Positions 12,253 through 27,594 of a DNA stretch of 64,000 bases are shown piece by piece; the stretch's first letter is position 1, and each line of letters opens with the position of its first letter. Source of the stretch: Candidatus Denitrolinea symbiosum (GTDB lineage Bacteria; Chloroflexota; Anaerolineae; Anaerolineales; Villigracilaceae); the NCBI GenBank assembly GCA_017312345.1, contig BLAA01000001.1:1488001-1552000 (forward strand), written 5' to 3'. A program made the translations under genes and the position numbers. The notes beneath the pieces are model-generated. The model saw nothing but the letters and a program-made list of their open reading frames with translations, did no database searches and was not told the origin of the DNA.

Positions 12253-12630
12253 CTATTTTGCATACGGTTGCACACTTCGCAAGCCCTTCAATACTCGGTA
12301 ATGTTTGACGTTGAAGGTCGCGAGTTCTGCATCCACGCCAATCGCAGTTTCAGCAATCAAGGCATCGAGCAGACCGATTTTGTCGCTGAGATGATGGAAG
12401 GCAAAACTCGTCAGCGCTCGATTGCAATCATCTTCGTCAGGCCAGAAGAGCGGATAGGCTGACAGCGATTTCTCCAATTGCTTTTGTTCTCTCGCGTTTT
12501 GACATCCCTGAATCAACTCCATTGCCACAAGCCCAGGGATGCCGATCTCCTGCGCGGTTTTCAACCATTCTTTTGCAGGCTCATAGCCGCGCAGAATATC
12601 CACCATAACATCGGTGTCAAGCAGGATCAA
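12253..12630 (-). CDS. vapC: PIN-domain ribonuclease toxin (VapC-like)
   Basis: A 125-residue PIN-domain protein. The acidic active-site residues are visible in LLDTDVMVD at the N-terminus, in VAMELIQG and in GLLDALIAETA. VapC toxins cleave tRNA or rRNA and are blocked by a cognate antitoxin. Its start overlaps the antitoxin gene by 4 bp. The module lies between direct copies of the deoC 3' end, so it was probably inserted between deoC and the ALDH gene. Confidence 0.85.
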   Translation of the reverse strand: MILLDTDVMVDILRGYEPAKEWLKTAQEIGIPGLVAMELIQGCQNAREQKQLEKSLSAYPLFWPDEDDCNRALTSFAFHHLSDKIGLLDALIAETAIGVDAELATFNVKHYRVLKGLRSVQPYAK

Positions 12631-12869
12631 GATGACTTCCTTCTGGTTTGCGCCTGTGTTCGAAGTTTCCGCGCATAGGTCACACTGTCGTTAATGTCAG
12701 TTCGCTCTGACCACATACCGATCAAACCCGATTTGAGCAAGTCCTTGCCTGTCATGGGCTTGTTCACTTGCCTCACCTTGTCAATCAGGCGAGTGGCAAG
12801 AAGCAATTGTTGGTTGGGCGTCAAAAGGTCTGCTTGTTTGAGCAATCGTTCAACGGTATCAAGAGCCAT
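12627..12869 (-). CDS. Antitoxin partner of the PIN toxin
   Basis: An 80-residue charged protein (LLKQADLLTPNQQLLLATRL near the N-terminus) encoded directly before the PIN toxin with a 4-bp overlap, the normal position for the antitoxin. I do not recognise a defined DNA-binding fold; function is inferred from position, size and overlap. The Lys/Arg-rich C-terminus (RTQAQTRRKSS) may be the flexible toxin-binding part. Confidence 0.65.
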   Translation of the reverse strand: MALDTVERLLKQADLLTPNQQLLLATRLIDKVRQVNKPMTGKDLLKSGLIGMWSERTDINDSVTYARKLRTQAQTRRKSS

Positions 12870-12899
12870 AATATTCTCGCTTTCTTTACGGTAACAATT

Positions 12900-13859
12900 C
12901 TATCCCATCGGCATGTGATGTTTCGCGGCGTAGTGGCCCGTGAGGTAGTGATACAACTGCCGTTCCAAATCGGTCAGCAAACTGGACGCGCCAAAGCGGA
13001 ACAGGTCATTCTTCAGCCACTCGTCGCCGAGTTCCTCTTTCATCAACGACTGCCACGCCATGGCCTGCTTGGCAGAGCTGATCCCGCCCGCGGGCTTGAA
13101 TCCGATCTTGTAGCCGAAGCGTTCCAGATACTCGCGGATGGCGCGCGTCATGACGAGACTCACTTCCAACGTGGCGTTGACTGATTCTTTGCCCGTCGAA
13201 GTCTTGATGAAGTCCGAACCTGCCATCATGGCGACGAGGCTGGCTTGATAAACCTGCTTGAGCGTGCCGAGGTCGCCTGTGGCAAGGATGGTCTTCATGT
13301 GCGCGTCACCGCAGGCTTCGCGGAATTGTTTGAGTTCATCGTAAAGGGATTTCCAGTCGCCTGTCAGCACATGGTTGCGGGCGATGACCACGTCAATTTC
13401 TTTTGCGCCCGCCTCCACGGCTTGTTCGATTTCCTGGATTCGCTGCGGGAGCGGGGTCTGCCCCGCGGGAAAACCTGTCGCGACGGACGCCACGGGGATG
13501 CCCGATCCCTGCAACGCGTGGACGGCGTCCGCGACGCGATTCGGGTAGACGCAGACCGCGGCGACAGTCATCCGCTCTCCGTCCAGGCCGAGGCGTTCGA
13601 GCATGTCGGGGCGAATCGGCTGTTTGGCCTTGGCGCACAGGCGCTGGACGCGCCCGGGCGTGTCGTCTCCGCCGAGGGTGGTCAGGTCAATGCAGGTGAC
13701 GGCGCGCAGCAGCCAGGCGGCCTGCCATTCTTTTTTCACGGTGCGGCGGCCGGCGAGGGTGGCAATGCGCCGCTCTGCCGCGCTCTTGTTGACGCGCGCG
13801 CCCATTACCCAGTCCAGGTCGAGGGGCGCGCCGGGGTTGCGATTATGGTTCGAAGTCAT
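12900..13859 (-). CDS. deoC: Deoxyribose-phosphate aldolase
   Basis: Cleaves 2-deoxyribose 5-phosphate to glyceraldehyde 3-phosphate and acetaldehyde in deoxynucleoside catabolism. The 319-residue protein is a class I TIM-barrel aldolase with the Schiff-base lysine in GSDFIKTSTGKES, the strand AKEIDVVIAR and the phosphate loop KPAGGIS. It is longer than the minimal 220-residue bacterial enzymes and has an N-terminal extension, as in eukaryote-like DERAs. It probably once ran directly into the ALDH gene, which could oxidise the acetaldehyde; a toxin-antitoxin module now separates them. Its last 26 bases are duplicated at 12214-12239. Confidence 0.93.
   Translation of the reverse strand: MTSNHNRNPGAPLDLDWVMGARVNKSAAERRIATLAGRRTVKKEWQAAWLLRAVTCIDLTTLGGDDTPGRVQRLCAKAKQPIRPDMLERLGLDGERMTVAAVCVYPNRVADAVHALQGSGIPVASVATGFPAGQTPLPQRIQEIEQAVEAGAKEIDVVIARNHVLTGDWKSLYDELKQFREACGDAHMKTILATGDLGTLKQVYQASLVAMMAGSDFIKTSTGKESVNATLEVSLVMTRAIREYLERFGYKIGFKPAGGISSAKQAMAWQSLMKEELGDEWLKNDLFRFGASSLLTDLERQLYHYLTGHYAAKHHMPMG
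12904..12929 (-). repeat. Duplicated deoC 3' end (right copy, inside deoC)
   Basis: The last codons of deoC, identical over 26 bases to 12214-12239. Together with the left copy it frames a 690-bp segment that holds the PIN-toxin operon. Confidence 0.85.
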
Positions 13860-13934
13860 GGACGCTCCAGTTTTTTCATCTGGGGAGATTATACAGCCAA
13901 ACGGAATTTGTTCCCGCCAGTATAATTCGCTCCC

Positions 13935-15191
13935 ATGACTACCCCATCTTCATTCCCGCGGCATGATCCGTACGCCGTCCTGCGCGCTCGCGACTTCCGC
14001 CTGTTATTGATTGGCCGCTTCACCGCCTCTTTCGGTCACGAAATGCTCACTTTCGCCATCGCGTGGGAACTCTGGCTTCGCACAAAAAGCGCCTTCGCCC
14101 TCGGCCTGGTGGGACTGGTGCAGGTGGCGCCGGTCGTCCTGCTTGCCCTGCCCGGCGGCCACTTCGCAGACCATCACAACCGCCGCCGCATCATTATGGT
14201 CACACAGACCGTCTTCGCGTTTTGCTCGCTGGCGCTGGCCTTCCTGTCGTGGACGCAGGGTCCGCTCCCGTTGATCTACCTCGCGCTGCTGGTCATCGGC
14301 ATAGCGCGCGCCTTCAACGACCCGGCCGCCGCCACGCTCATCCCAGAGACGGTGGCGCCCGAACTGTTTTCCAATGCCGCCATGTGGAGCAGCAGCGCCT
14401 GGCAAACCGCCGCGGTGACCGGCCCAATGGCGGCGGGAGTGTGGGCCGCGGCCGCGGGCAGCGTGACCGGCATCTTCGTCTTCGACGCGCTGGCCGCCTT
14501 CATCTTCGTAATTTTGATCGGCCTGATCCGTGGACGCCATCTCCCGCTGGCGCGCAAAGCCGCGACGTTGGATTCGCTCAAGGAGGGACTGCGCTTCATG
14601 CGCGAGACGAAGGTCATCCTCGCCGCCATCACGCTCGACATGTTCGCGGTTCTCTTCGGCGGGGCGGTGGCGCTGCTCCCCATCTACGCCACCGACGTCC
14701 TCAACGTCGGCGCGCGGGGACTGGGCGTCATGCGCGCCGCGCCCTCGATTGGGGCGCTGCTGATGGCCTTCACTCTCGCGCACCTGCCTCCGCTCAAACA
14801 GGCCGGCAAGACTCTCCTCTGGGCGGTGACGGGATTCGGACTCGCCACCATTGTCTTCGGCCTCTCGAAGAACTTCTGGCTCTCGGTGGTCATGCTGTTC
14901 CTGCTCGGCGCGTTGGACAATATCAGCGTGGTCATCCGCTCCACGCTCATGCTCGTTCGCGTCCCCGACGAAATGCGCGGACGCGTCTCCTCGGTGAACA
15001 GCGTCTTCATCAGCATGTCGAATGAACTGGGCGCGTTCGAATCGGGCTTCCTCGCCTCGCTGGTTGGACCGATCCTCGCGGTCGCTGGGGGAGGCGTCGG
15101 GACGATCGTCGTCGTGCTGATCGTCGCCCGCGTCTGGCCTGAGATTCGGAATCTGAAATCGCTTTCCGCCTTGACCTCGGATGGCGATTGA
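13935..15191 (+). CDS. MFS transporter
   Basis: A 418-residue, 12-helix major facilitator of the drug/unknown-solute type (MFS_3-like). It begins with a short cytosolic segment, then DFRLLLIGRFTASFG, and has the loop GGHFADHHNRRRI after helix 2, a version of the MFS motif A (GxxaDrxxrr). The substrate cannot be predicted. It is transcribed divergently from deoC; the short 75-bp gap contains TATAAT on both strands. A clear intrinsic terminator follows at 15297-15322. Confidence 0.85.
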   Translation: MTTPSSFPRHDPYAVLRARDFRLLLIGRFTASFGHEMLTFAIAWELWLRTKSAFALGLVGLVQVAPVVLLALPGGHFADHHNRRRIIMVTQTVFAFCSLALAFLSWTQGPLPLIYLALLVIGIARAFNDPAAATLIPETVAPELFSNAAMWSSSAWQTAAVTGPMAAGVWAAAAGSVTGIFVFDALAAFIFVILIGLIRGRHLPLARKAATLDSLKEGLRFMRETKVILAAITLDMFAVLFGGAVALLPIYATDVLNVGARGLGVMRAAPSIGALLMAFTLAHLPPLKQAGKTLLWAVTGFGLATIVFGLSKNFWLSVVMLFLLGALDNISVVIRSTLMLVRVPDEMRGRVSSVNSVFISMSNELGAFESGFLASLVGPILAVAGGGVGTIVVVLIVARVWPEIRNLKSLSALTSDGD

Positions 15192-15296
15192 AAAACTGGG
15201 GTATGAATTCATAAATGGCGTAGAACGGGATACTATCTCGCTCTACGTTTTGAGAGCCTTTGTGCTGATATTCTTCTCCGTTAAAGCGCGCAAACC

Positions 15297-15341: not shown

Positions 15342-15998
15342 CTACTGCGGCGCGGTCACCGCGATGTCGAAGTGATAGATCAACTTCCATTGGGGCGGCG
15401 GCCAGTAAATGACCAGCGCCTTTCCGATCACGTTTTCAAGCGGCAGCATCCCCCACGAACGCGAGTCGGATGAGTCGTTGCGGTTATCGCCCAGCACGAA
15501 GAGATACCCCGGCGGCACCTCCCACGTCCCCGAATAGGTCGGCGCGGCGGCAATGTATGGCTCCACTAACTGCTGATCGTTCACGACCACATGCAAATCC
15601 CGCACCTCCACCTTGTCGCCCGGCAAGCCGATGATGCGTTTGATCAGGTCCTGCTTTGGCTCGCCCGGATATTTCAACACGATGATGTCGCCGCGCTGCG
15701 GTTCGCCCAGGCGGTAAGCCAGCCGGCTCACCAGCACATACTCGCCGTTCTGCAACGTTGGCTCCATGCTGAACCCGTCCACGCGCACGCGCGCTGAAAT
15801 GGCGTTGATCCCCAGGTAAAGCGCCGCCGCCAGGAGGATCGTTTCGAGCAGGTCAAGGAAGAATTGCCGCCAGCTCGTCTGCGACTTGGCCGCCTCGACG
15901 GGGACGGCGGACGTTTCCGTGATCGGCGCGGCCTCCGTAGACGCCTCGGGTATCGGCGCGTCGGCGGTCGTCGGTTCGTTGGTCGGTTGAATATCCAT
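15342..15998 (-). CDS. lepB: Signal peptidase I
   Basis: Removes signal peptides from exported proteins at the outer face of the membrane. The 218-residue protein has one N-terminal membrane helix (FFLDLLETILLAAALYLGI), the Ser nucleophile in DGFSMEPTL, the Lys base in KRIIGLPGD and the box E motif LGDNRNDSSDSR. The ATG at 15996-15998 is preferred over one at 16016 because GGAG lies five bases upstream. The cytosolic N-terminus is unusually Thr/Ala/Glu-rich. Confidence 0.92.
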   Translation of the reverse strand: MDIQPTNEPTTADAPIPEASTEAAPITETSAVPVEAAKSQTSWRQFFLDLLETILLAAALYLGINAISARVRVDGFSMEPTLQNGEYVLVSRLAYRLGEPQRGDIIVLKYPGEPKQDLIKRIIGLPGDKVEVRDLHVVVNDQQLVEPYIAAAPTYSGTWEVPPGYLFVLGDNRNDSSDSRSWGMLPLENVIGKALVIYWPPPQWKLIYHFDIAVTAPQ

Positions 15999-16055
15999 TG
16001 ATCTCCAAAGCTTCATGCAGAAACCAGGTCTCTTCGCGAAACCTGGTTTCCCAAA

Positions 16056-16784
16056 TTATACCCGCCCCCATGCAAAATGCGTCGGCACATACAGCGTTCG
16101 CTCGCCGCGCGCGCGGGCCTCTTCGTCCAGTAATTTCATTTTGTGGATGTCTTCGACCGGGACGGACGCGGCCAGGTCGGCCTCCAGCGCCGCCCATTCC
16201 TTTTCCTGCTCTTCGGGCGACGCTTCCTCCTCTAACCTTCGGATGGTCCCCGTTTCGACGATTTCGATTCCCGCCCGGGCGAACGTCTCCGCGAGGCGCG
16301 CGCCGAAAGATGGATCCGCGCCCTGCGCGCGCAGAGACTCGGTCTGCAGACGGCCCAGCGGCGCGAGGGAGGCGGGCTCGTCCACGCGTTGACTGTAATC
16401 GGGTTCGGCCAGCGCCAGCACGCTCCCGCCGGGACGCGTCACGCGCGCCATTTCGCGCGCCGCGCGCAGCGGCTCGTCCACCCAGAGGAGGAGGAAATGA
16501 CAGAAGACGATGTCGAAGGCGGAGTCGGGGTAGGGGAGCGAGCGCGCGTCGGCGCGGACGAGGGCCGCGCCTGGGGCGTGGATGCGCGCCTCGGTCAGCG
16601 CGCCCGGGTCGAGGTCCAGGCCGTGAAGCGCGGCGGAGGCGGTTATCGAGGAGAGGACGGCGCCCGTCCCGCATCCCGCTTCGAGGACGCGGCGCGCGCC
16701 GGCCAGTCCCGCCTTGTCGAGGAGATAAGCGCGCAGGTCGCGCGTCCAGCGCGCCTGCTGAAGATAACGGTCATGCCGGTTCAT
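16056..16784 (-). CDS. Class I SAM-dependent methyltransferase
   Basis: A 242-residue Rossmann-fold methyltransferase. Motif I is VLEAGCGTGAVL, the acidic post-I motif is HGLDLDPGAL, and FDIVFCHFLLLWV is the motif II region. The substrate is unknown; the sequence resembles small-molecule methyltransferases of the UbiE/type 11 group. Its start overlaps the end of the upstream phosphatase gene by 14 bp, suggesting coupled translation. Confidence 0.85.
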   Translation of the reverse strand: MNRHDRYLQQARWTRDLRAYLLDKAGLAGARRVLEAGCGTGAVLSSITASAALHGLDLDPGALTEARIHAPGAALVRADARSLPYPDSAFDIVFCHFLLLWVDEPLRAAREMARVTRPGGSVLALAEPDYSQRVDEPASLAPLGRLQTESLRAQGADPSFGARLAETFARAGIEIVETGTIRRLEEEASPEEQEKEWAALEADLAASVPVEDIHKMKLLDEEARARGERTLYVPTHFAWGRV

Positions 16785-17301
16785 TCCAACCGCGAATAAA
16801 TTCGACCTGTTCGTCCGTTTCGGGGGTGCGGGGATGATGGGCGCGGCGTGGGTCGGTCTCCCACCATTGAGCCAGTTGCGCCAGCGCCTGCTCGCCCGTC
16901 ATGCCGTGGCGGACGAGGTAACAGCCGACGGTGGAGCCGGTGCGCCCGATGCCCGCCCAGCAGTGGAGGTAGACGTTGCGCCCGCGGGCGAGGGCCTCGT
17001 CAATGGCGTTGAGGGTGGCGATCATCCCGGCGCGGGTGGGCAGGCCGAAGTCGCGGATGGGGAGGCGGTGGACGCGCGCCTCTTTTTGGTAGTAGGCCGC
17101 GCGTTCGCGCAGGAGGGGGGCGTAATCGGGCAGTTCGTTTTCGCGGGTGAGGTCAATGAAGGTGTCCAGCCCGGCTTCGAGGAGGGCGTCGAGGCGTTTG
17201 CGGACGCGTTCCTCGCCGAACGCGCCGGGGTATTCGCCCGCCAGGAAGCGGTTGGGGATGACCCAATAGGAGTTGGAGATGGGAAGGTCGAGGGTTGTCA
17301 T
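16771..17301 (-). CDS. Dual-specificity/tyrosine phosphatase-like protein
   Basis: A 176-residue phosphatase with the complete P-loop HCWAGIGRTGS, in which the Cys is the nucleophile and the Arg binds phosphate. The upstream FIDLTRENE and IRDFGLP segments fit the general-acid loop of small dual-specificity phosphatases. The start ATG at 17299-17301 gives the family length; a longer in-frame extension reads through the neighbouring methyltransferase gene and is not used. It lies between two methyltransferase genes on the same strand; no substrate is suggested by context. Confidence 0.85.
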   Translation of the reverse strand: MTTLDLPISNSYWVIPNRFLAGEYPGAFGEERVRKRLDALLEAGLDTFIDLTRENELPDYAPLLRERAAYYQKEARVHRLPIRDFGLPTRAGMIATLNAIDEALARGRNVYLHCWAGIGRTGSTVGCYLVRHGMTGEQALAQLAQWWETDPRRAHHPRTPETDEQVEFIRGWNEPA

Positions 17302-17357
17302 GTTCGGTTCAAGATTGCAGAGCGCGGCGCACGCGCGAAAGACGGCGCGCGTCCGCG

Positions 17358-17963
17358 TTATTTTTTCGCCACGGCCCACATGTTGAGCATGAGTTCGAAA
17401 TAGCCGAAGTCTACTTTGGTCATTTCGAAGCCGGCTTTTCCAAAGTACCAGCCGAGGAGCGGGAGCGTGTACGCGAAGACGTGTTCGTGGATCTCCTCCG
17501 CGCTGACGAGGCGGACGCGCGCCATGAGTTTGAGCAGCCCGTCGGACCAGGCCGCGGGGGTGGTCATAATGACGACCCCGCCCGGCTGGAGGACGCGGTA
17601 GGTCTCCTGGAAGAGCGCGGCCATGCTGTTGGGGTTGAGGTGTTCCACCACCGCCAGCAGGGTGACGACGCTGAAGAAGTCGGCTTCGAAGGGCAGTTTG
17701 GGCGCGGAGTTCAGGTCGAGCGTGTGCCATTGGATGTTGAGGCGCTTTCCCTGCTCGCTGGGCGGGAGCTGGTCCACCGCGAATTTTTGCTGGAAGACCG
17801 TGTGCGAGAGGAAGTAGGGATAAGAGCCGCAGCCGATGTCGAGGATGCGCCCGGCGCGGAGCTCGGCGGGGATGAGATTGTTGGCGCGCTGGGCGCGCAG
17901 CCGCGCCAGCCAGGGTTCGAGCAGGCCCTTGCCGCGCGTGAATCGTTGATTGGTTTCGGACAT
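17358..17963 (-). CDS. Class I SAM-dependent methyltransferase
   Basis: A 201-residue methyltransferase with motif I ILDIGCGSYPYF, a VVTLLAVVEHL motif and LQPGGVVIMTTP, typical of type 11/12 enzymes acting on lipids, sugars or small molecules. The ATG at 17961-17963 is chosen; a start 30 bp further upstream adds ten poorly conserved residues. It is separated from the radical SAM operon by a 178-bp gap that contains a minisatellite and a hairpin, so it is probably not part of that operon. Confidence 0.85.
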   Translation of the reverse strand: MSETNQRFTRGKGLLEPWLARLRAQRANNLIPAELRAGRILDIGCGSYPYFLSHTVFQQKFAVDQLPPSEQGKRLNIQWHTLDLNSAPKLPFEADFFSVVTLLAVVEHLNPNSMAALFQETYRVLQPGGVVIMTTPAAWSDGLLKLMARVRLVSAEEIHEHVFAYTLPLLGWYFGKAGFEMTKVDFGYFELMLNMWAVAKK

Positions 17964-18023: not shown

Positions 18024-18123
18024 GAACACGCGGGGCGAACACGCGGGGCGAACACGGGGCGAACACGCGGGGCGAATACGCGGGGCGAACACGCGGGGCG
18101 AACACGCGGGGCGAATACGGGGC
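18024..18123. repeat. 13-bp minisatellite, eight units
   Basis: Eight tandem units of GAACACGCGGGGC in the order 13, 13, 11, 13, 13, 13, 13, 11 bp. The 11-bp units lack a CG and two units carry GAATACG. A ninth unit runs into the hairpin at 18126-18149. The tract lies between the methyltransferase and the radical SAM-like gene. Confidence 0.9.
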
Positions 18124-18125
18124 GA

Positions 18126-18149
18126 ACACGTAGGTTCGCCCCTACGTGT
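18126..18149 (-). terminator. Hairpin overlapping a stop codon
   Basis: ACACGTAGG (18126-18134) and CCTACGTGT (18141-18149) form a perfect 9-bp stem with a six-base loop. The TAG stop of the radical SAM-like gene (18142-18144) lies inside the stem. There is no U run on the minus strand, so it may be a repeat-derived hairpin rather than a true terminator. Confidence 0.45.
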
Positions 18150-19278
18150 AAATTTTGTCCCAGGGGTCGGTCAGCAGGTTGCCCATCACCTTGTCGGCTT
18201 CGCCCTGCGCGGGGAGGACGTCGCCGTCGGGTTCGATGTAGAGCCAGGCGCGGCCCGCGCCGGAGGGGAGTTCCTCGTCTTCGATTTCGAGCGCGACGGG
18301 ATTCATGTCGGAGTAGGGGACGGGCAGGTCCCAGCGCAGGGAGATGTTGAGGGCGCGCGCCTTGTCCTGGAGGGCGAGCATATCGCCGAGGAATGATTTG
18401 TCGGGGGCGCTGAGCGACAGGTTTTGGACGCCGATTTTGGCGAGTCTTTCGACGATCTTCACGCCTTCCGGGGCGGTGGATTCGTTCACGGTCAGGTGGA
18501 CGGTGAGGAAGATGTCCGCATCCACGATGAAGACGAGGGCTTTCCAGACGGCGTCGTCTTCGGGATGGAGGATGAGCAGGATGTGGTCGAGGCCAGTCTG
18601 GAGCAGTTGGTCGAGATATTTTTTGTCGGCGAGGGCCGCGCCGTCGGTGAGCAGTCCGCAGACCATGCCGAGTTTTTCGGCGTGCGCGATCAGTTCGGGC
18701 AGGTCTGCGCGCAGGGTGGGTTCGCCTCCGGTGAATGTGACGTGCGGGACGCCCGCGCTCCAGGCTTTGTCCAGGATGGCGCGCCACTCGTCGGTCGTCA
18801 GTTCGCGGGCGGCGCGTTTGACGGGGGCGGAGTCGGGCTGAGTCCGGGCGGCGACGCGGTAGGTGAGGGCGCAGTCTATGCGGAGGGGGGCGGTCAGGTC
18901 GGCTGAATGGGGCGCGGCCCGCTCGAAGTCGAGGTAAGAGACGGGGTCGAGGTCGGGGGTCTCGATCAGGGTTCGCATACGGCCGGCGAAGTCGTTGTAG
19001 TCCTCCAGCGCCTGCGCCGTCCCGATGCGGTAGCGCGAGGCGATCTCTCTGGCGGCGTCGGCGGGCGGAGTCCCTTTGATGTAGCGCCAGGCGTATTCCG
19101 CCGCGGTGGGGTTGAGTTGCAGCACGGTGGAGGCGTTGAGGATGAGCAGTCCCGTGCCGTCGCGGCGGAGGCGGAGGTGGACGCGCAGGGGTTTGTCGTC
19201 GGCCTGCATGTGGTAGAGGCCCTCGGGCAGGGGCTGGACTTTTTTGAACTGGTCGGCGAGGCGGTTGAAGATTTTCAT
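18142..19278 (-). CDS. Radical SAM/PqqD-like protein without cluster cysteines
   Basis: A 378-residue paralogue of the radical SAM protein at 20316-21680. Residues 15-105 form the same PqqD-like leader-binding domain (LILNASTVLQLNPTAAEYAW). The barrel keeps the SAM-binding GGE motif (TFTGGEPTLR, 181-190). The CxxxCxxC of the partner (TYRCNNDCSHC) is replaced by TYRVAARTQPD, so all three [4Fe-4S] ligands are gone, and the C-terminal SPASM cysteines are also missing. It cannot carry a normal radical SAM cluster and is probably a scaffold, substrate-presenting or regulatory partner of the intact enzyme. It begins 8 bp after the membrane-protein gene, deep in the operon. The reading frame is intact throughout, arguing for a functional protein. 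Confidence 0.85.
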   Translation of the reverse strand: MKIFNRLADQFKKVQPLPEGLYHMQADDKPLRVHLRLRRDGTGLLILNASTVLQLNPTAAEYAWRYIKGTPPADAAREIASRYRIGTAQALEDYNDFAGRMRTLIETPDLDPVSYLDFERAAPHSADLTAPLRIDCALTYRVAARTQPDSAPVKRAARELTTDEWRAILDKAWSAGVPHVTFTGGEPTLRADLPELIAHAEKLGMVCGLLTDGAALADKKYLDQLLQTGLDHILLILHPEDDAVWKALVFIVDADIFLTVHLTVNESTAPEGVKIVERLAKIGVQNLSLSAPDKSFLGDMLALQDKARALNISLRWDLPVPYSDMNPVALEIEDEELPSGAGRAWLYIEPDGDVLPAQGEADKVMGNLLTDPWDKIYT

Positions 19279-20315: not shown

Positions 20316-21680
20316 TCAGGCCGCGACGACGGGGAGGTTGACTCCGTAGGCCGCGCGGTAGCCTTCGAAGGTGAGCGGGCATCCGCCGCCGCATTCCGCT
20401 ACGACGGGACAGCCGTCGCATTTGGCGGGCAGGTTCTGCCGCTCGCGTAATTGCGTGGAGAGTTTGTGATTCCAGATGGAATCCCACGAGTCGGTCAGGA
20501 AGTTGCCGAGCGGGTGGTAGTAGGACTGGCAGGGCAGGACGTTGCCGTTCGATTCGATGCACATGCTGTAGAGCGCGGCGGTGCAGCCTTTGACGCCGAG
20601 GTTGCTGGCGGTGGGGTCGAATTCGCAATACTGCGTGGGCGTGTACCAGATCAGCCGCTGTCCGCGCTCGGCGGTTTTCCGCGTGGCGACGTCGAGGAGG
20701 GGCTGAAGTTCGCTCTCGCGCAGTCCCGTCCCAACCGTCAGGCCGTGACCGGAATAGATGAGGGCGTTCAGCCCGATGGTCGGCACGCCGAGGTCGGCGA
20801 GGAAGTCCAGCGTGTCGGGAATCTTGTGGACGTTGACGCGCAGCATGGTGGTGTTGGTCATCACGTAGAGCCTGGTCGCCAGCGCGTTTCGGAGTCCCGC
20901 GATGGTCTGTTTGAAGGCGCCTTTGGCGCGCATCATCTGGTCGTGGATCTCCGCGTCGCACGATTCGACGGTGATCTGCACATGGTCGAGTCCGGCCTCC
21001 ACGAGTTGTTGGACGAAGCGCGCGTCGGAGAGGCGGCGGGCGTTGGTGTTGAGCCCGGTGATCTGTCCGTTCGATTCGGCGTGCGCGATCAGTTCGGGCA
21101 GGTCGTCGCGCAGGGTCGCCTCGCCGCCGGTGAAGACGATGTGAGGGACGCCGAGCGCCCAGAGCTGGTCAATGACGCGCTTCCAGGTTTCCGTGTCCAG
21201 TTCAGGAAAGGTGCGCTCGCGGGCGTTGTAGCAGTGGGAGCAGTCGTTGTTGCAGCGGTAGGTGAGCGCCAGGTCCATGCGGTAGGGCGCGGTTGGACGC
21301 GCGCTGAACGGCATGGCGGAGTCGAGTTCGAGTTCGTGGACGGGACAGGCGCCGTCGGGGCGGAGCAATTCCGAAATCTGAATTTTGAATTCGGAGAGGT
21401 CTGCCCGCGCTTGCGGCGCGCTGACCCGATATGTCCGCTGGACGGCTTTGACCGCGTCGCGTTCTTCGATCTCTTCCAAAGCCAGCCATGCCATCAACGC
21501 GGCGGTCGGGTTCAGGTGCATGACGCGGTTGGCGTTAACGATGAGCGTGCCGCTGCCGCCCGGGTCGACGCGCAGGTGGACGCGCGTCTTCTCGTCGCCG
21601 TCTTCGCGGGCGTAGTGATACAGTCCCGATTTTGGATTTTCGATTTCCGGTTTACGATTAAAGAGAGAGTCGAATAACAT
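20316..21680 (-). CDS. Radical SAM/SPASM protein with PqqD-like N-terminal domain
   Basis: A 454-residue radical SAM enzyme. Residues 15-105 form a PqqD-like (RRE) domain, which in RiPP enzymes binds a peptide leader. The cluster motif is C143-x3-C147-x2-C150 (CNNDCSHC), the SAM motif is FTGGEATL, and the C-terminal SPASM domain has many cysteines (VKGC, YSMCIESNGNVLPC, AKCDGCP, AECGGGC) for auxiliary Fe-S clusters. Such enzymes modify ribosomal peptides, for example by thioether formation. It directly follows the DUF2207 gene with the Cys-Ala tail (26-bp gap), which is the natural candidate substrate. Part of the N-terminal coding region is made of a dispersed AAATC-type repeat (21625-21660). 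Confidence 0.92.
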   Translation of the reverse strand: MLFDSLFNRKPEIENPKSGLYHYAREDGDEKTRVHLRVDPGGSGTLIVNANRVMHLNPTAALMAWLALEEIEERDAVKAVQRTYRVSAPQARADLSEFKIQISELLRPDGACPVHELELDSAMPFSARPTAPYRMDLALTYRCNNDCSHCYNARERTFPELDTETWKRVIDQLWALGVPHIVFTGGEATLRDDLPELIAHAESNGQITGLNTNARRLSDARFVQQLVEAGLDHVQITVESCDAEIHDQMMRAKGAFKQTIAGLRNALATRLYVMTNTTMLRVNVHKIPDTLDFLADLGVPTIGLNALIYSGHGLTVGTGLRESELQPLLDVATRKTAERGQRLIWYTPTQYCEFDPTASNLGVKGCTAALYSMCIESNGNVLPCQSYYHPLGNFLTDSWDSIWNHKLSTQLRERQNLPAKCDGCPVVAECGGGCPLTFEGYRAAYGVNLPVVAA

Positions 21681-21706: not shown

Positions 21707-23377
21707 TCATCTTCCGCCGCCCGCGCAGGCGCAGGCGCATCCCGCGCAGGCACAAGCGCAGGCGCAGGAATGTCCGCCGCCGCCGCCACTGCGCGTAGAA
21801 CTGACGCTGGGCGGAGGCGGCGGGTTGGTGACGCCGGTGACTTTGCTCGTGAAGGCCTGCACGTCGCCGATCACTTTGCTGGAGAAGTTCTGCGCGCCGC
21901 CGATGACGGAGGCCGCGAACTGCGCGCCGGGCAGGGGTCGGGCGGACCCGCTGGAGGTCGGGATGGAGACCGGGCGGGAGGAGGATGTCCCGACGACGGG
22001 GCGATAGGCCGGGTCGTAGCGTCCCCACCAGCTCGGGATGAAGACCGGGCCGGTGAAGGCGCGGCGGGAGCGGTCGTCGTAGTCCTTGTCGAGCATGGTC
22101 CATTCGAGGTTTTCGTCGAATTTCTGGCTTTTCACTTCGGGCGTGTCGGCGAGTTCCACTTGCGCCCAGGCGCGTTCCATGATGCCTTTGTAGTAGTCCA
22201 CTGTTTCCTTGCGGCTGAAACCCTTCATTTTGTCCGAGACGGAGCGGACGAGCGCGATGGACATATCTTGCAGCAGCCTGCGCCGCGCGGCTGTTTTTTT
22301 CTCGCCAAAGGCTTTGAGGAAGTCTTTTTCGTATTCGTGGAGGCCTTCGGGCATGGCCGTCGCGAAGGCCAGTTCGAGCGGGTCGCGCGTGACCACTTCG
22401 GCCGCGCCCTTTTTGATCACGCCGAACAGGATCATCGTCATCACTTTGTCGAGCGGCTGTTCCATCAGGATGGCGGCTTCGACCGCGGTCAGTCCGCGCT
22501 TGATGCCGTGTCCCTCGATGGAGATCTTCGGGGGCAGGTATTTTAATTTCCGCCGCTGGGCGTTGACGACGCTGAAAACGGGAATGCCGAAGAAAAAGGC
22601 CGCGAAGACCAGGCACGGGAGCGACGAGGCGATGAAGGTGAAGAACGCGCCGATGACGCCAAACAGGTCTTCAAGCGGATTACTCTGGACGACGGCGGTG
22701 GCGGGGATATAGGTATTCGGGAAGGAGGCGCCGAAGTCGTATTCTTTCGTGGCGCGGACGGTCGCCGTCCAGGTGTAGGCGACGCGGCCTTCGTTGTCCA
22801 GCGCGGTCTGCGGTTCGGACGGGAATCCGCTCGGGGCGGAGTGCCAGCGCGGTTCCTCGGGCTTGACGCCGGGCGGCAGGTGGAAGATGACGCTCAGCTC
22901 GGTGACGCCGGTCACGTATTGCGAGCCGAACCAGGTGGGAGCGAAGACGGCGCTGGCGTAGTTGCTGTCTTTGGAATCGGGATACATCACGTCCGTGATG
23001 CCGCTGATGTAGACGTGTACGGCGCCGGTACGTCCCGGCTGGATGGCGTACGCGCCCAGGTCCACCGCGAAGCCGTAGGAGCCGTCGCCCTGGTAATCGG
23101 AGGAGATGTTGACGGTCTTTCCGTCCACGTCGGCGCGGGCGTTGTTGATGTTGTAGCGGCCGTTGGGCATGCCTACGTCCACGAAATCGATCGCGTGTCC
23201 GCCGGCGTTGTTCGTGAAGACGAACACGTAATCCAGCGCCACGCTGCCGTCCGAGTTCCAGTAGACGTTGACGGTTTCCTTGTCGAGGGTGAACGAATAG
23301 TCCTGCGCCAGCGCGGGGGTCGCGGCCGCGAAGGAGAGGAGTAAAACCAGGGCGATTAATGCCAGCCGTTTTTTCAT
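21707..23377 (-). CDS. DUF2207 membrane protein with Cys-Ala repeat tail
   Basis: A 556-residue protein with a signal peptide (residues 1-25, ending TPALAQ), an N-terminal extracytoplasmic domain of the DUF2207 type, one long hydrophobic segment at about 238-271 and a C-terminal cytoplasmic part. A proline run (NPPPPPS) and a Gly stretch lead to the last 21 residues, which contain CACACACAGCACACA followed by GGGR: seven cysteines (538, 540, 542, 544, 547, 549, 551) alternating with alanine. DUF2207 proteins usually end in a Gly/Ser-rich tail, so the cysteines are special. With a single membrane crossing the tail would face the cytosol, within reach of the radical SAM enzyme encoded next. The ATG at 23375-23377 has a GGAGG site. 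Confidence 0.85.
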   Translation of the reverse strand: MKKRLALIALVLLLSFAAATPALAQDYSFTLDKETVNVYWNSDGSVALDYVFVFTNNAGGHAIDFVDVGMPNGRYNINNARADVDGKTVNISSDYQGDGSYGFAVDLGAYAIQPGRTGAVHVYISGITDVMYPDSKDSNYASAVFAPTWFGSQYVTGVTELSVIFHLPPGVKPEEPRWHSAPSGFPSEPQTALDNEGRVAYTWTATVRATKEYDFGASFPNTYIPATAVVQSNPLEDLFGVIGAFFTFIASSLPCLVFAAFFFGIPVFSVVNAQRRKLKYLPPKISIEGHGIKRGLTAVEAAILMEQPLDKVMTMILFGVIKKGAAEVVTRDPLELAFATAMPEGLHEYEKDFLKAFGEKKTAARRRLLQDMSIALVRSVSDKMKGFSRKETVDYYKGIMERAWAQVELADTPEVKSQKFDENLEWTMLDKDYDDRSRRAFTGPVFIPSWWGRYDPAYRPVVGTSSSRPVSIPTSSGSARPLPGAQFAASVIGGAQNFSSKVIGDVQAFTSKVTGVTNPPPPPSVSSTRSGGGGGHSCACACACAGCACACAGGGR

Positions 23378-23402: not shown

Positions 23403-23798
23403 TTACCACTTTGGTTCTTCGGTAAGTTGATAGACGGTGTTGCAGTAGGGACAGTTAACCATGGGCGCGCCGTTGACAATTTTAATGTTGTCGGCTGTGA
23501 GCGTCCCGCCGCAGGAGCGGCACTTCATTTCGGAGATCTTGGTCTCGCCGGGCAGGTCCACTTTGTAGGTGACGTTCTGCGCGGTTTCCTGTTTGGTCTT
23601 GCGGACGGCCAGGACGATCAGGACGACGCCGCTCAACAGCGCGAAGGCGCCGATGCAGACGCCGGCGTTTCCAAGCCCGGTCACGCCTTGCGCTCCGCCC
23701 GACGCGCCGAGGAGAAGGAAACTTCCCAGGCAAATGCCGGCGGCCGCGAGGAGCAGGAGAACGACCGCGCCTACGTACATCCATGTAACAGGTTTCAT
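23403..23798 (-). CDS. Small membrane protein with C-terminal zinc ribbon
   Basis: A 131-residue protein with two membrane helices (about 7-30 and 45-65) followed by a soluble zinc ribbon whose ligands are C93/C96 (CRSC) and C116/C119 (CPYC). The ATG at 23796-23798 has a perfect AGGAGG site. It is the first gene of the operon, 25 bp before the DUF2207 gene. I do not recognise the family beyond the zinc ribbon; it could help recruit or position the tail-modifying proteins at the membrane. Confidence 0.75.
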   Translation of the reverse strand: MKPVTWMYVGAVVLLLLAAAGICLGSFLLLGASGGAQGVTGLGNAGVCIGAFALLSGVVLIVLAVRKTKQETAQNVTYKVDLPGETKISEMKCRSCGGTLTADNIKIVNGAPMVNCPYCNTVYQLTEEPKW

Positions 23799-24035: not shown

Positions 24036-25823
24036 CTACGGTATGGGCGTCCCGGTCAACTGGATGGAGTCGACGTAGCCATAGTCTGCCGCGTCGGCGC
24101 CGGACTGGCGGATGCGGATTTTGAAGTCGGCGCGGTTGGCCGCGGCCGCGGGCAGGATGAACGTCAGCCGGTTGAGTTTGCCGTTCTCGCGCGGCGAGCC
24201 GTTCTTGATGGTCGTGAGCGGTTTCCAGGCCGAGCCGTCCCACCAGGAAAGTTGGAGCGTTTCCTTATTTTCGTACGAAGCCGCGCCCAGGTAGACGGTC
24301 AATTTGAGATTCTCATATCCCTGCGTGGAGACGACGCGGCTGATGGACGCGTTCCCGGCCAGGCGGACGCTGCGCGGGCCGATACGCGGCGCGGCCGCGC
24401 TCCAAACGACTTTGCCCGTTTTGGTCCAGCCTTTGAAGGCGGCGTTGAAGTTATCGCTGAAGACGACGGCCGGGGTGACGGCCGTTCCGCTGAATTCGTA
24501 CGCGCCGATGTCCCATTTTGAATCGTTCGGGCGGGGCGCGTCGGCGAAGTCGCGCTTGGGCGCGTTGGCGTCCGTCCCGGCGTTGATGGCCGGGGAGGCC
24601 GCGTCCAGCCGAAAGTCGGAGGCGGAGACGTTGACGAAGCGGGGGACGCCGGTCACGTAGTTCGTCCCGCGCGTCTCGCCGGAGAGGTTGCGGAATCCGT
24701 CCAGCAGGTTGTTGGTGATGGTCGTCTCGGAAGGAGGCGTCCCGTTTATCTGGATGGTGAATTGCGTGTTCTGGCTGAGCAGGTTGTTGCGGACGACGAC
24801 GTTTTTGGCGCGGTCGTTCCAGAGGCCGATCCCGCCGCCGCCCTCGCTGCCGTTTTGGACGACCGTGTTGTTGACGATGAAGATGTTGTTCAACGCGCCG
24901 TAGCCCCAGTTGCCGAGCAGGATGCCGCTGGTGGCGTTCTTGTAGACGATGTTGTTGACGACGACGATGTTGTTCAGCCCATAGCCTCTCTTTTCGGCTT
25001 CGATGGAGATCCCCGAGCGCTGGTTTTCGTGGACGAAGTTTCCGTCAATGGTGATGTTATAGCCGTTGCCCTTGTAGGCGTCCACATAGATGCCGACGCG
25101 CGGGCCGCGAAAGACTTCGTTGCCTTTCACCAGGACGTCGCGCGAGCCGTAGTAGACGCTGATGCCCTCGCCGCCTTGCGCGCCGGATCCGCCGTCGTGG
25201 ACGCGGTTGTTCAGCACGGTGACGAACTCGCTGCCCGAAATGGCGAGCATTTCCTGGTTGCCGTCGTGGTTGGCGAGTTCCACGTCGTTGCCCTCGACGA
25301 TCACGTTGGAACTGGAGCGGATCATGATGCCCGAACGATACGTGTTGTAAGTCTGGTTGTTTTTGACGTTGCAGTGATCGGACTGGACGCAGACGATCCC
25401 GAACCCGCCGTTGTCGGTGGAGTTGGAATTGACGACGCGGAATCCGACGATCTGGACGTAACTCTTCTGGTTGACGGTGAACCCGCCTTCGTGATAGTTC
25501 TCCATTTTGATATCGCGCACGTCAACGACCGCCGTCTCGCCGGGATAGGACGAGAACGTGATGTAGTTTCCCGCCGCGCCGCTGTTTTTGACGATGACCT
25601 TTTCGTGGTACGTCCCGCCGCGCACGTAGACCGTGTCTCCGGCCGCGGCTACATTGGCCGCCTTTTGGATGGTGCGCCAGGGCGCGGCCTGCGTTCCGGC
25701 GTTGGAATCTTTTCCGTTTGTCGCCACATAGTAGGTCTTGCCGGCAGCGCGCGCCGTCCGCGCGGGCAGGAGCAGCGAAAGCGCCAGCGCAATTAACACC
25801 GAGTTAAAAATAATTTTCTTCAT
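24036..25823 (-). CDS. Secreted right-handed beta-helix protein
   Basis: A 595-residue exported protein with a signal peptide (LIALALSLLLPARTARAAG). The mature start YYVATNGKDSNAGT and WRTIQKAANVAAAGDTVYV are typical of parallel beta-helix proteins (DUF1565/pectate-lyase-like). Residues of about 75-440 are rich in the repeating V-x-N-N pattern (VVVNNIVYKN, IFIVNNTVVQNGS). The last 140 residues form a beta-sandwich-like domain (DNFNAAFKGWTKTG), perhaps carbohydrate binding. Polysaccharide binding or lysis is likely, but catalytic residues cannot be assigned. The ATG at 25821-25823 places the signal peptide at the N-terminus. Confidence 0.85.
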   Translation of the reverse strand: MKKIIFNSVLIALALSLLLPARTARAAGKTYYVATNGKDSNAGTQAAPWRTIQKAANVAAAGDTVYVRGGTYHEKVIVKNSGAAGNYITFSSYPGETAVVDVRDIKMENYHEGGFTVNQKSYVQIVGFRVVNSNSTDNGGFGIVCVQSDHCNVKNNQTYNTYRSGIMIRSSSNVIVEGNDVELANHDGNQEMLAISGSEFVTVLNNRVHDGGSGAQGGEGISVYYGSRDVLVKGNEVFRGPRVGIYVDAYKGNGYNITIDGNFVHENQRSGISIEAEKRGYGLNNIVVVNNIVYKNATSGILLGNWGYGALNNIFIVNNTVVQNGSEGGGGIGLWNDRAKNVVVRNNLLSQNTQFTIQINGTPPSETTITNNLLDGFRNLSGETRGTNYVTGVPRFVNVSASDFRLDAASPAINAGTDANAPKRDFADAPRPNDSKWDIGAYEFSGTAVTPAVVFSDNFNAAFKGWTKTGKVVWSAAAPRIGPRSVRLAGNASISRVVSTQGYENLKLTVYLGAASYENKETLQLSWWDGSAWKPLTTIKNGSPRENGKLNRLTFILPAAAANRADFKIRIRQSGADAADYGYVDSIQLTGTPIP

Positions 25824-25938
25824 GCCGTCTTTAATAAACTTATTGCCGCAAGCGGGCAAGGGTGAAAAGTCCTCTCTATCAAATTTGTAAGCGTAAAGGT
25901 TGTATACTTGGAAGAAAACAGGACAAGCGAGTGAAACC

Positions 25939-27594
25939 ATGACCCTCAAAGACGCTTTTCAAAAATGGCAGGATTCGATTCTGAAAAAATCGCTGGACAA
26001 ATTCTCCGAACGGAAACCCCGCTTCGAGACCTCCTCCGGCGTCGAACTTCCCCGCCTCGCCCTTCCCGACGTTGAGGCGGGCGCGGCCTACGAGGAGCGG
26101 ATCGGCTTCCCCGGCGAATATCCCTTCACGCGCGGCGTCCAGCCGACGATGTACCGTTCGCGCTTCTGGACGATGCGCCAATACGCGGGATTCTCGACCG
26201 CCGAGGAATCCAACAAACGCTACCGCTTCCTGCTCGACCAGGGGCAGACCGGCCTCTCCGTCGCGTTCGACCTCCCGACGCAGATCGGCTACGACGCGGA
26301 CGATCCCATCGCGCGGGGCGAGGTGGGCAAAGTGGGCGTCTCCATCTCCTCCATCCGGGACATGGAGCGGCTATTCTACCAGATTCCCCTCGACAAAGTC
26401 TCCACCTCGATGACCATCAACGCGCCGGCGGGCGTTCTGCTCGCCATGTACGTCGCCGTGGCGAAACGCCAGGGCGCGGACATGCGCGAACTGCGCGGCA
26501 CCATCCAGAACGACATCCTGAAGGAATACGCGGCGCGCGGGACGTATATCTTTCCGCCCGCGCCTTCGATGCGCCTCATCACGGATATTTTCTCGTTCTG
26601 CGCGCAGGAGACCCCGAACTGGAATACGATTTCCATCAGCGGTTATCACATCCGCGAGGCGGGTTCGACGGCCGTGCAGGAGGTCGCTTTTACGCTCGCG
26701 AACGGGATCGCTTACGTGGAGGCCGCGCTCAAAGCCGGTCTGGACGTGGACGCGTTCGCGGGTCAGCTTTCGTTCTTCTTCAACGCGCACAACAACCTAT
26801 TGGAGGAGGTCGCCAAGTTCCGCGCGGCGCGGCGCATGTGGGCAAAGATCATGCGCGAACGCTTCGGCGCGAAGAAACCCTCCTCGTGGCAGTTGCGCTT
26901 CCACACGCAGACGGCCGGTTCGACCCTCACCGCGCAGCAGCCTGAAAACAATATCGTGCGGGTTACATTGCAGGCCCTGTCCGCTGTCCTCGGCGGGACC
27001 CAGTCCCTGCACACCAACAGCATGGACGAGGCGCTCTGGCTGCCCACTGAGAAGTCCGTGCGCGTGGCGCTCCGCACCCAGCAGGTCATCGCCTACGAGT
27101 CGGGCGTGGCGGATTCGATCGATCCGCTGGCGGGCTCGTATCTGATCGAAAGTCTCACCGACGAGATCGAGAAACGCGCCGACGAGTACATCCGCCGGAT
27201 CGACGGGATGGGCGGCGCGCTCAAAGCCATCGAGCGCGGCTTCGTCCAGGGCGAGATCCAGGACGCGGCGTACGCGGCCCAGCAAGCCGTCGAGAAGAAG
27301 GAACAGATCATCGTGGGCGTCAACCAATTCCAGGTGAAGGAGGAAATCGCGCTGGAACGGTTGAAGGTGGACCCGGCGATCGAGGTCGGTCAGCGCGAGA
27401 GGTTGAAGGAGTTGAGAGCGAATAGAGATCAGGGAGCGGCGGACGCGCTGCTCGGCAAACTGGCCGAGGCCGCGAAGGGGACGCAAAACCTGATGCCGCT
27501 CTTCATCGAGTGCGTGGAACGCGATATCACGCTCGGCGAAATCTGTAATTGCCTGCGCGGGGTGTGGGGCGAATATGTGGCGGAGGGATTTTAA
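25939..27594 (+). CDS. Methylmalonyl-CoA mutase, catalytic (substrate-binding) subunit
   Basis: A 551-residue protein that converts methylmalonyl-CoA and succinyl-CoA together with a separate cobalamin-binding subunit. It has the family TIM-barrel segments [34 protein letters not shown] and the mutase signature [16 protein letters not shown]. The B12-binding domain (DxHxxG) is missing, so this is the split architecture, and the small subunit gene is not in the window. Isobutyryl-CoA mutase-type subunits look similar, so specificity is not certain, but methylmalonyl-CoA epimerase encoded shortly downstream supports the call. The ATG at 25939 is favoured over one at 25900. Confidence 0.9.

Follow-up and report, generated by a model that had tools for sequence, protein, structure and literature searches.

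The stretch of DNA analysed here (the window) comprises 64,000 nucleotides of the genome of Candidatus Denitrolinea symbiosum and carries, on its reverse strand, a set of genes centred on a membrane protein with an unusual C-terminal tail (the carrier) and a radical SAM/SPASM enzyme (Table 1). The initial annotation had described a cysteine- and alanine-rich tail and, 26 bp downstream of the carrier gene on the same strand, a PqqD-domain radical SAM/SPASM neighbour. The translation and the open reading frame positions were re-read and its sequence, coordinates and spacing are correct as described; a domain search, together with the coordinates (enzyme gene start at 21680), confirms the identity and distance of the neighbour.

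Table 1. Features of the tail-bearing locus, in window coordinates
Feature	Position	Strand	Basis
Class I SAM-dependent methyltransferase, 242 aa	16056..16784	-	Pfam; conserved position
Pseudo-radical-SAM paralogue that retains the PqqD domain and the barrel and has lost the cysteines of CxxxCxxC and of SPASM	18142..19278	-	Pfam; AF2; Foldseek; tree
333-aa protein with C-terminal TM helix	19287..20288	-	Hydropathy; in 13/29 neighbourhoods
Radical SAM/SPASM enzyme, 454 aa, with a PqqD-like domain at its N-terminus and the motif CNNDCSHCYN	20316..21680	-	Pfam; structure-sequence matches; alignment
Tail-bearing membrane protein (carrier), 556 aa	21707..23377	-	ATG at 23377, stop 21707-21709; AF2; 44-member alignment
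C-terminal tail CACACACAGCACACAGGGR, residues 538-556, presumed to be the modified core	21710..21766	-	Translation; alignment; codon test
Helical segment before linker and tail, residues 484-517, pLDDT about 80-90	21827..21928	-	AF2; hhalign
DUF2207_C-like domain, predicted cytosolic, residues 298-440, pLDDT about 95	22058..22486	-	AF2; hhalign
Transmembrane helix, residues about 254-274 (near 254-278 in the AF2 model), followed by RRK	22556..22618	-	Hydropathy; AF2
Beta-rich ectodomain, residues 29-220, pLDDT about 97	22718..23293	-	AF2; Foldseek
Small membrane protein, zinc ribbon at its C-terminus, gene upstream of carrier	23403..23798	-	Domain search; conserved neighbours

From its N- to its C-terminus, the carrier consists of a signal peptide, the ectodomain, a transmembrane helix, the cytosolic domain, helices, a Ser/Gly linker and the CA tail. 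An AF2 model built on the 44-member alignment (mean pLDDT 86), with an N-terminal signal-peptide helix and a disordered tail, supports the earlier description of a membrane-anchored protein with a large folded ectodomain. In a Foldseek comparison the fold of the latter matches ribophorin I/Ost1 and the domain at the N-terminus of M1 peptidases, at low whole-chain TM-scores. The tail is predicted, from hydropathy, the RRK motif and the AF2 model, to be cytosolic and held by a single transmembrane helix; we place it on this side of the membrane, which is also that of the enzyme, because of the hydropathy and the positive charges that follow the helix. Several relatives have extra transmembrane segments, in numbers that still appear to leave the tail inside.

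No Pfam or NCBIfam family matched the carrier at E<=0.01, and the DUF2207 label of the initial annotation needs qualification: remote homology holds, while membership by Pfam thresholds does not, and we rejected it for want of a score above the cut-off. PF09972 and PF20990 found no match in the organism's own genome, and the best relative (L145) reached 13.1 bits against a DUF2207 cut-off of 33. Pairwise comparison of hhalign profiles, with 44 tail proteins on one side and 18 Anaerolineae DUF2207_C proteins on the other, returned 99.4% probability (E=3e-21, 476 columns). The likeness to DUF2207/DUF2207_C extends over the ectodomain, the cytosolic domain and the helical segment, and by sequence profile the carrier is remotely related to DUF2207. 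At their C-termini the two differ, true DUF2207 proteins of the same class ending in poly-Gly and the carrier in the CA tail. True DUF2207_C proteins (L213-L237) are common in the class's other orders and none was found in the seven genomes of the window's family that were searched, which may reflect a functional replacement.

The window protein terminates in PPPPPSVSSTRSGGGGGHSCACACACAGCACACAGGGR (longer stretch, HSCACACACAGCACACAGGGR), in which seven cysteines alternate with seven alanines and one glycine interrupts. Among 30 homologues retrieved by whole-protein similarity, the tail playing no part in the search, the last 17 residues are identical in 29 and the CA tail is terminal in all. 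The tail codons show 8.7 synonymous versus 0.13 non-synonymous differences per pair, even though 106 of the 153 single-base changes possible in this stretch are non-synonymous (38 are synonymous and nine lead to a stop). This bias denotes strong purifying selection on the tail itself; the Ser/Gly/Arg linker directly before it varies freely. A wider alignment of 44 members, reaching the Asgard archaea, has a mean column identity of 29%, and the tail holds 14 of its 18 invariant columns; members outside the window's order were found by the tail pattern and give independent evidence only in the unsearched final residues through GGGR, so that the homology-only set of 30 is the fairer test. The conservation of the tail is more than chance, and the tail is under selection.

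Three forms of the tail recur. Type A, (CA)2-5 G CACACAGGGR, occupies the extreme C-terminus, type B is CACACAGCACACACAGGGR, and the tails of Clostridia read CACACACAGGGRAGC[ST]xKDFY-like, followed by a short extension. The Clostridial carrier retains a homologous ectodomain (hhalign E=5.5e-28), is missing the large cytosolic domain and, in three of six cases, contains a zinc ribbon. One Clostridial tail (L209, 6971-8413) has expanded, Ser-interrupted arrays (SSCACASACASSCACASSCACACACASSGRAGC) that would be useful for defining the tolerance of the enzyme. A rare variant, CACGRACAGCACACAGGGR, occurs at L028, and at L059 (about 10360-10650) a short CACACAGGGR lies in a frame different from the rest of its gene, through a frameshift or an assembly error. 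Two genomes have two tandem tail-bearing genes each (L053, 7001-10970; L180), the first in L053 encoding about 760 aa, longer than usual.

The neighbouring enzyme exceeds the Pfam cut-offs for PF05402, PF04055 and PF13186, which correspond to an RRE (PqqD), the CxxxCxxC motif and a SPASM domain, and it scores far below the family cut-offs of NCBIfam. Its nearest solved structures by sequence are SkfB (E=6.7e-23) and PqqE (E=4.4e-22), followed by SuiB.

Carrier and enzyme keep close company. Carrier homologues were found by whole-protein similarity in 109 of 150 related genomes; with an enzyme threshold of 1e-30, which also admits the pseudo-enzyme (in a few fragmentary assemblies, such as G036, G058, G063 and G120, it scores best), 107 genomes have both, 38 neither, two the carrier only and three the enzyme only. 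The two carrier-only cases are a weak match (G137) and a 63%-complete genome whose contig ends at the locus (G146), while the enzyme-only cases comprise one weak, pseudo-enzyme-like score (G002) and two incomplete genomes (G124, G129). Within genera the pair is present in some genomes and absent from others; this implies that both genes were lost together repeatedly, although the genomes are not independent of one another. This co-occurrence bears out the earlier claim of a dedicated RRE-bearing enzyme partner.

Over a broader set of 163 distinct tails, the active enzyme lay within the fetched slice for 131. Most of the other 32 tails were at slice or contig edges and one stood beside a frameshifted enzyme gene; in 13 of these genomes, searched whole, an orthologue was present in every one, at E values of 1e-80 to 1e-143 in 12 and as a fragment in the thirteenth (G679). 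These 32 loci were accordingly set aside as counter-examples. Tails in genomes without the enzyme, which the initial annotation had named as evidence against its proposal, were thus not encountered in the 13 genomes checked, and the proposal is not refuted. In Clostridia, tail and adjacent enzyme occur together in six of six cases. The pairing is near-obligate.

Five genomes of one family (f9) follow a different arrangement: the usual enzyme gene is absent and the only enzyme present is of the type-B branch, with the type-A tail intact. At such loci, in f9 and its relatives (L047, about 12460-15270; L062, 5129-7894; L067; L096; L181), the type-B enzyme sits beside a shortened type-B carrier that has neither ectodomain nor tail, and the type-A tail protein and the pseudo-enzyme remain. 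This looks like an enzyme replacement, as would be expected if the tail depends on an enzyme.

In 84,980 genomes, a DNA pattern encoding CACACAGCACA located the tail at at least 119 places. The matches listed include, among bacteria, Chloroflexota, Acidobacteriota, Aminicenantes, Fermentibacterota, Planctomycetota, Armatimonadota, Hydrogenedentota, Zixibacteria, Coatesbacteria, Edwardsbacteria and Hungatella hathewayi, and, among Asgard archaea, Hodar-, Heimdall-, Loki- and Sigynarchaeota. Most tail-bearing genomes are MAGs; the enzymes form separate, lineage-specific branches in the tree, which argues against a single contaminant. The system is also carried by isolates, namely Ornatilinea, Bellilinea, Levilinea, Leptolinea and Hungatella. 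A chance pattern match was considered for Hungatella and rejected, as the enzyme directly adjoins the tail gene.

Three recurring partners had been overlooked by the initial annotation: a zinc-ribbon membrane protein, a Cys-less pseudo-radical-SAM protein and a class I methyltransferase. The zinc-ribbon protein is present in 29 of 29 neighbourhoods and the pseudo-radical-SAM in 27 of 29, the latter retaining a GGE motif. An AF2 model of the pseudo-enzyme (pLDDT 85) has the radical SAM fold, with PqqE, SkfB and SuiB as its nearest Foldseek matches. Type-B loci have a different paralogue, also without CxxxCxxC, and the two Cys-less groups stand apart in the tree, on long branches; we therefore discarded a single origin of the dead paralogues in favour of a loss that would have happened at least twice. 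Just downstream of the pseudo-radical-SAM gene in the window (18024-18130), a 13-bp unit, GAACACGCGGGGC, is repeated in tandem in 8.5 copies.

The methyltransferase occurs in 23 of 29 Chloroflexota neighbourhoods and lies downstream on the same strand for 64 of the 83 tails with at least 3.5 kb of downstream sequence. It adjoins the tail or the enzyme in Asgard archaea, Planctomycetota, Armatimonadota, Zixibacteria, Coatesbacteria, Acidobacteriota, Fermentibacterota and Hydrogenedentota, and was not found in the Clostridial loci. Together with a dual-specificity-phosphatase-like gene (window 16771-17730) and an S26 signal peptidase (15342-16016) it forms a block in 11 of 29 neighbourhoods, probably a matter of local, family-level synteny. 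The 333-aa protein is probably an accessory or likewise local synteny. A right-handed beta-helix protein (Beta_helix, NosD-like; window 24036-25949), on the same strand just upstream of the operon, is not a recurring neighbour. The neighbourhood clusters contain no recurring protease or exporter specific to the locus, and on these grounds we rejected an antibiotic-type cluster and do not regard the system as a classical RiPP cluster.

Co-occurrence and the logic of the domains strongly imply that the tail is a substrate of the enzyme. In the mechanism that we propose, the neighbouring radical SAM/SPASM enzyme would grip its substrate by way of the PqqD-like domain and act on the (CA)n-G-CACACAGGGR tail as the core. 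The most likely product would be a set of intramolecular thioethers joining Cys sulfurs to Ala (or Gly) alpha-carbons, perhaps folded as a hairpin around the central Gly. A further mark, on a remaining group, may come from the methyltransferase, and the Cys-less paralogue may serve as a non-catalytic recognition partner. The product would not be released: the membrane protein, single-pass and with its ectodomain outside, would keep it at its cytosolic end. RumMC2, which has an RRE, a radical SAM domain and a SPASM domain, bonds Cys to the alpha-carbons of Ala and Gly in engineered substrates (PMC8188230), and the tail residues are thus of known donor or acceptor types; this result and the position of SkfB as nearest structure are the reasons for which thioethers from Cys to Ala (or Gly) appear most likely.

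How the enzyme would recognize the tail is a separate matter. The initial annotation cast a 530-residue membrane protein as the 'leader'. The whole protein need not have this part, and the helical segment at residues 484-517 is a candidate for the recognition element. It is a candidate only, since a similar segment is found in DUF2207 proteins and the Clostridial carriers do without it.

Overall, we consider it probable, though well short of assured, that the tail is an enzyme-made core kept on its membrane protein in a RiPP-like fashion, probably as Cys-Ala thioethers. The analysis establishes the anatomy of the locus, the selection on the tail, its near-obligate pairing with the enzyme, the domain content and the gene partners; the substrate relation, the thioether chemistry, the topology and the function are what we infer, and the initial interpretation is, as a whole, partly supported.

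Two other accounts are unlikely but deserve attention. According to one, the tail would be an unmodified thiol array that binds a metal (Zn, Cu, Fe-S) or senses redox, with the enzyme and the zinc-ribbon protein in the same pathway and the former not modifying the tail. CxCxC arrays are natural metal ligands, and the zinc-ribbon protein not only recurs in the operon but, in some Clostridia, forms part of the carrier itself by fusion. Metal binding, however, makes no demand for invariant Ala residues and a terminal GGGR besides the cysteines; moreover, the near-obligate partner is an RRE-bearing SPASM enzyme, and enzymes of this type act on peptides; the loci examined showed no invariant peptide besides the tail.

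A second account, to which we attach a similarly low probability, accepts the tail as substrate but assumes a different chemistry: every other Ala might be epimerised to D-Ala, C-C crosslinks might form, Cys might be oxidised, or thioethers might reach beta-carbons. Epimerases, C-C cyclases and sulfatase-maturing enzymes are all found among SPASM enzymes and their kin; the enzyme is closely related to PqqE and SuiB, and modification of every second residue would suit an alternating L/D peptide. In the usual sactipeptide layout the Cys donors are separate from the acceptors, while in the tail donors and acceptors alternate, and it is for this departure from known sactipeptides that other chemistries retain some weight. 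Against them, every second tail residue is Cys, the thioether donor, and the thioether-forming SkfB is the top match among solved structures, although it is barely ahead of PqqE and this near tie means that the nearest structure does not settle the chemistry.

It is quite improbable that the true substrate lies elsewhere (a small molecule, say, or the zinc-ribbon protein) and that the tail only docks the enzyme or recruits it to the membrane. A scaffold role would also explain genes that travel together, but tail and enzyme persist in Clostridia with a carrier that differs greatly from the rest, and a docking motif would rarely need seven alternating cysteines. Finally, low-complexity drift beside a coincidental neighbour, for which the Gly-rich, low-complexity tails of true DUF2207 proteins of the same class could be cited, can hardly be credited given the strong purifying selection next to a freely varying linker and the co-occurrence over many phyla; the codon test and the co-occurrence data refute it.

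With the tail taken as an enzyme-made core retained on its carrier, the nearest published idea concerns TIGR04222 membrane proteins with Cys-bearing C-tails, for which modification by MNIO (DUF692) enzymes within the whole protein has been proposed (PMC12452194). Both systems join a membrane protein that has a Cys-bearing, low-complexity C-tail to an adjacent peptide-modifying metalloenzyme. The TIGR04222 tails, however, are diverse in Ser, Gly and Cys and are periplasmic, whereas the tail described here is a near-invariant CA repeat, predicted to be cytosolic, and its enzyme is a radical SAM protein. The near-obligate pairing of tail and radical SAM enzyme also contrasts with the looser TIGR04222/MNIO association, a third of TIGR04222 genomes being without MNIO genes (PMC12452194). 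The carrier matches neither TIGR04222 nor any other NCBIfam model, and an MNIO gene is not among the window neighbours scanned, the recurring neighbour clusters being other families.

The sactipeptide systems (SkfB, AlbA and RumMC1/2 of ruminococcin C) likewise combine an RRE, a radical SAM domain and a SPASM domain with a Cys-rich target. They differ in that the core here belongs to a large membrane protein, hardly varies from phylum to phylum and has no recurrent protease or exporter. The ACGX radical SAM system (TIGR04340) is similar in having a radical SAM/SPASM enzyme and in taking its name from a Cys-containing motif; TIGR04340 is not listed among the window enzyme's best matches, and the only protein to match it, the type-B pseudo-enzyme of L112, scores 24.9 bits against its cut-off of 400. 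Cofactor RiPPs, such as PQQ and mycofactocin, depend on RRE-dependent radical SAM enzymes, and their products are cut from small peptides. Their products are excised, whereas no release is evident here, and the invariance of the core across phyla suggests a cofactor-like product. Of the features of RiPP clusters, a short precursor, leader removal and export are not seen at these loci, the carrier having about 550 aa. As tested, the system works like a RiPP but fails two features that define RiPPs, the short precursor and the release.

The near-invariance of the tail from Clostridia to Asgard archaea suggests a role that is cofactor-like, metal-binding or redox rather than antibiotic. Taking these considerations further, we tentatively suggest, as a reading with perhaps one chance in a few of being right, a protein-bound peptide cofactor: a crosslinked, perhaps methylated Cys-Ala hairpin. 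It would be tethered permanently to the cytosolic side of the membrane, beneath a sensor-like domain outside the cell. A radical SAM enzyme would make it, alone or together with a dead partner and a methyltransferase, and Asgard archaea, Clostridia, Chloroflexota and numerous further phyla would share it.

The open-access literature yielded no description of the tail sequence, of an alternating cysteine or of radical SAM enzymes with membrane tails, which may be described elsewhere; from sequence analysis, this looks like a previously undescribed module, an enzyme-made tail tethered to the membrane. What is known of radical SAM chemistry on peptides comes mostly from small, secreted ones that diversify. 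A near-invariant, cytosolic core on a membrane protein in two domains of life would, if true, point to a conserved redox, metal or signalling function and to a new way of building protein-bound cofactors. Because the carrier, the enzyme and the methyltransferase now have names and coordinates, and isolates exist, these ideas are directly testable.
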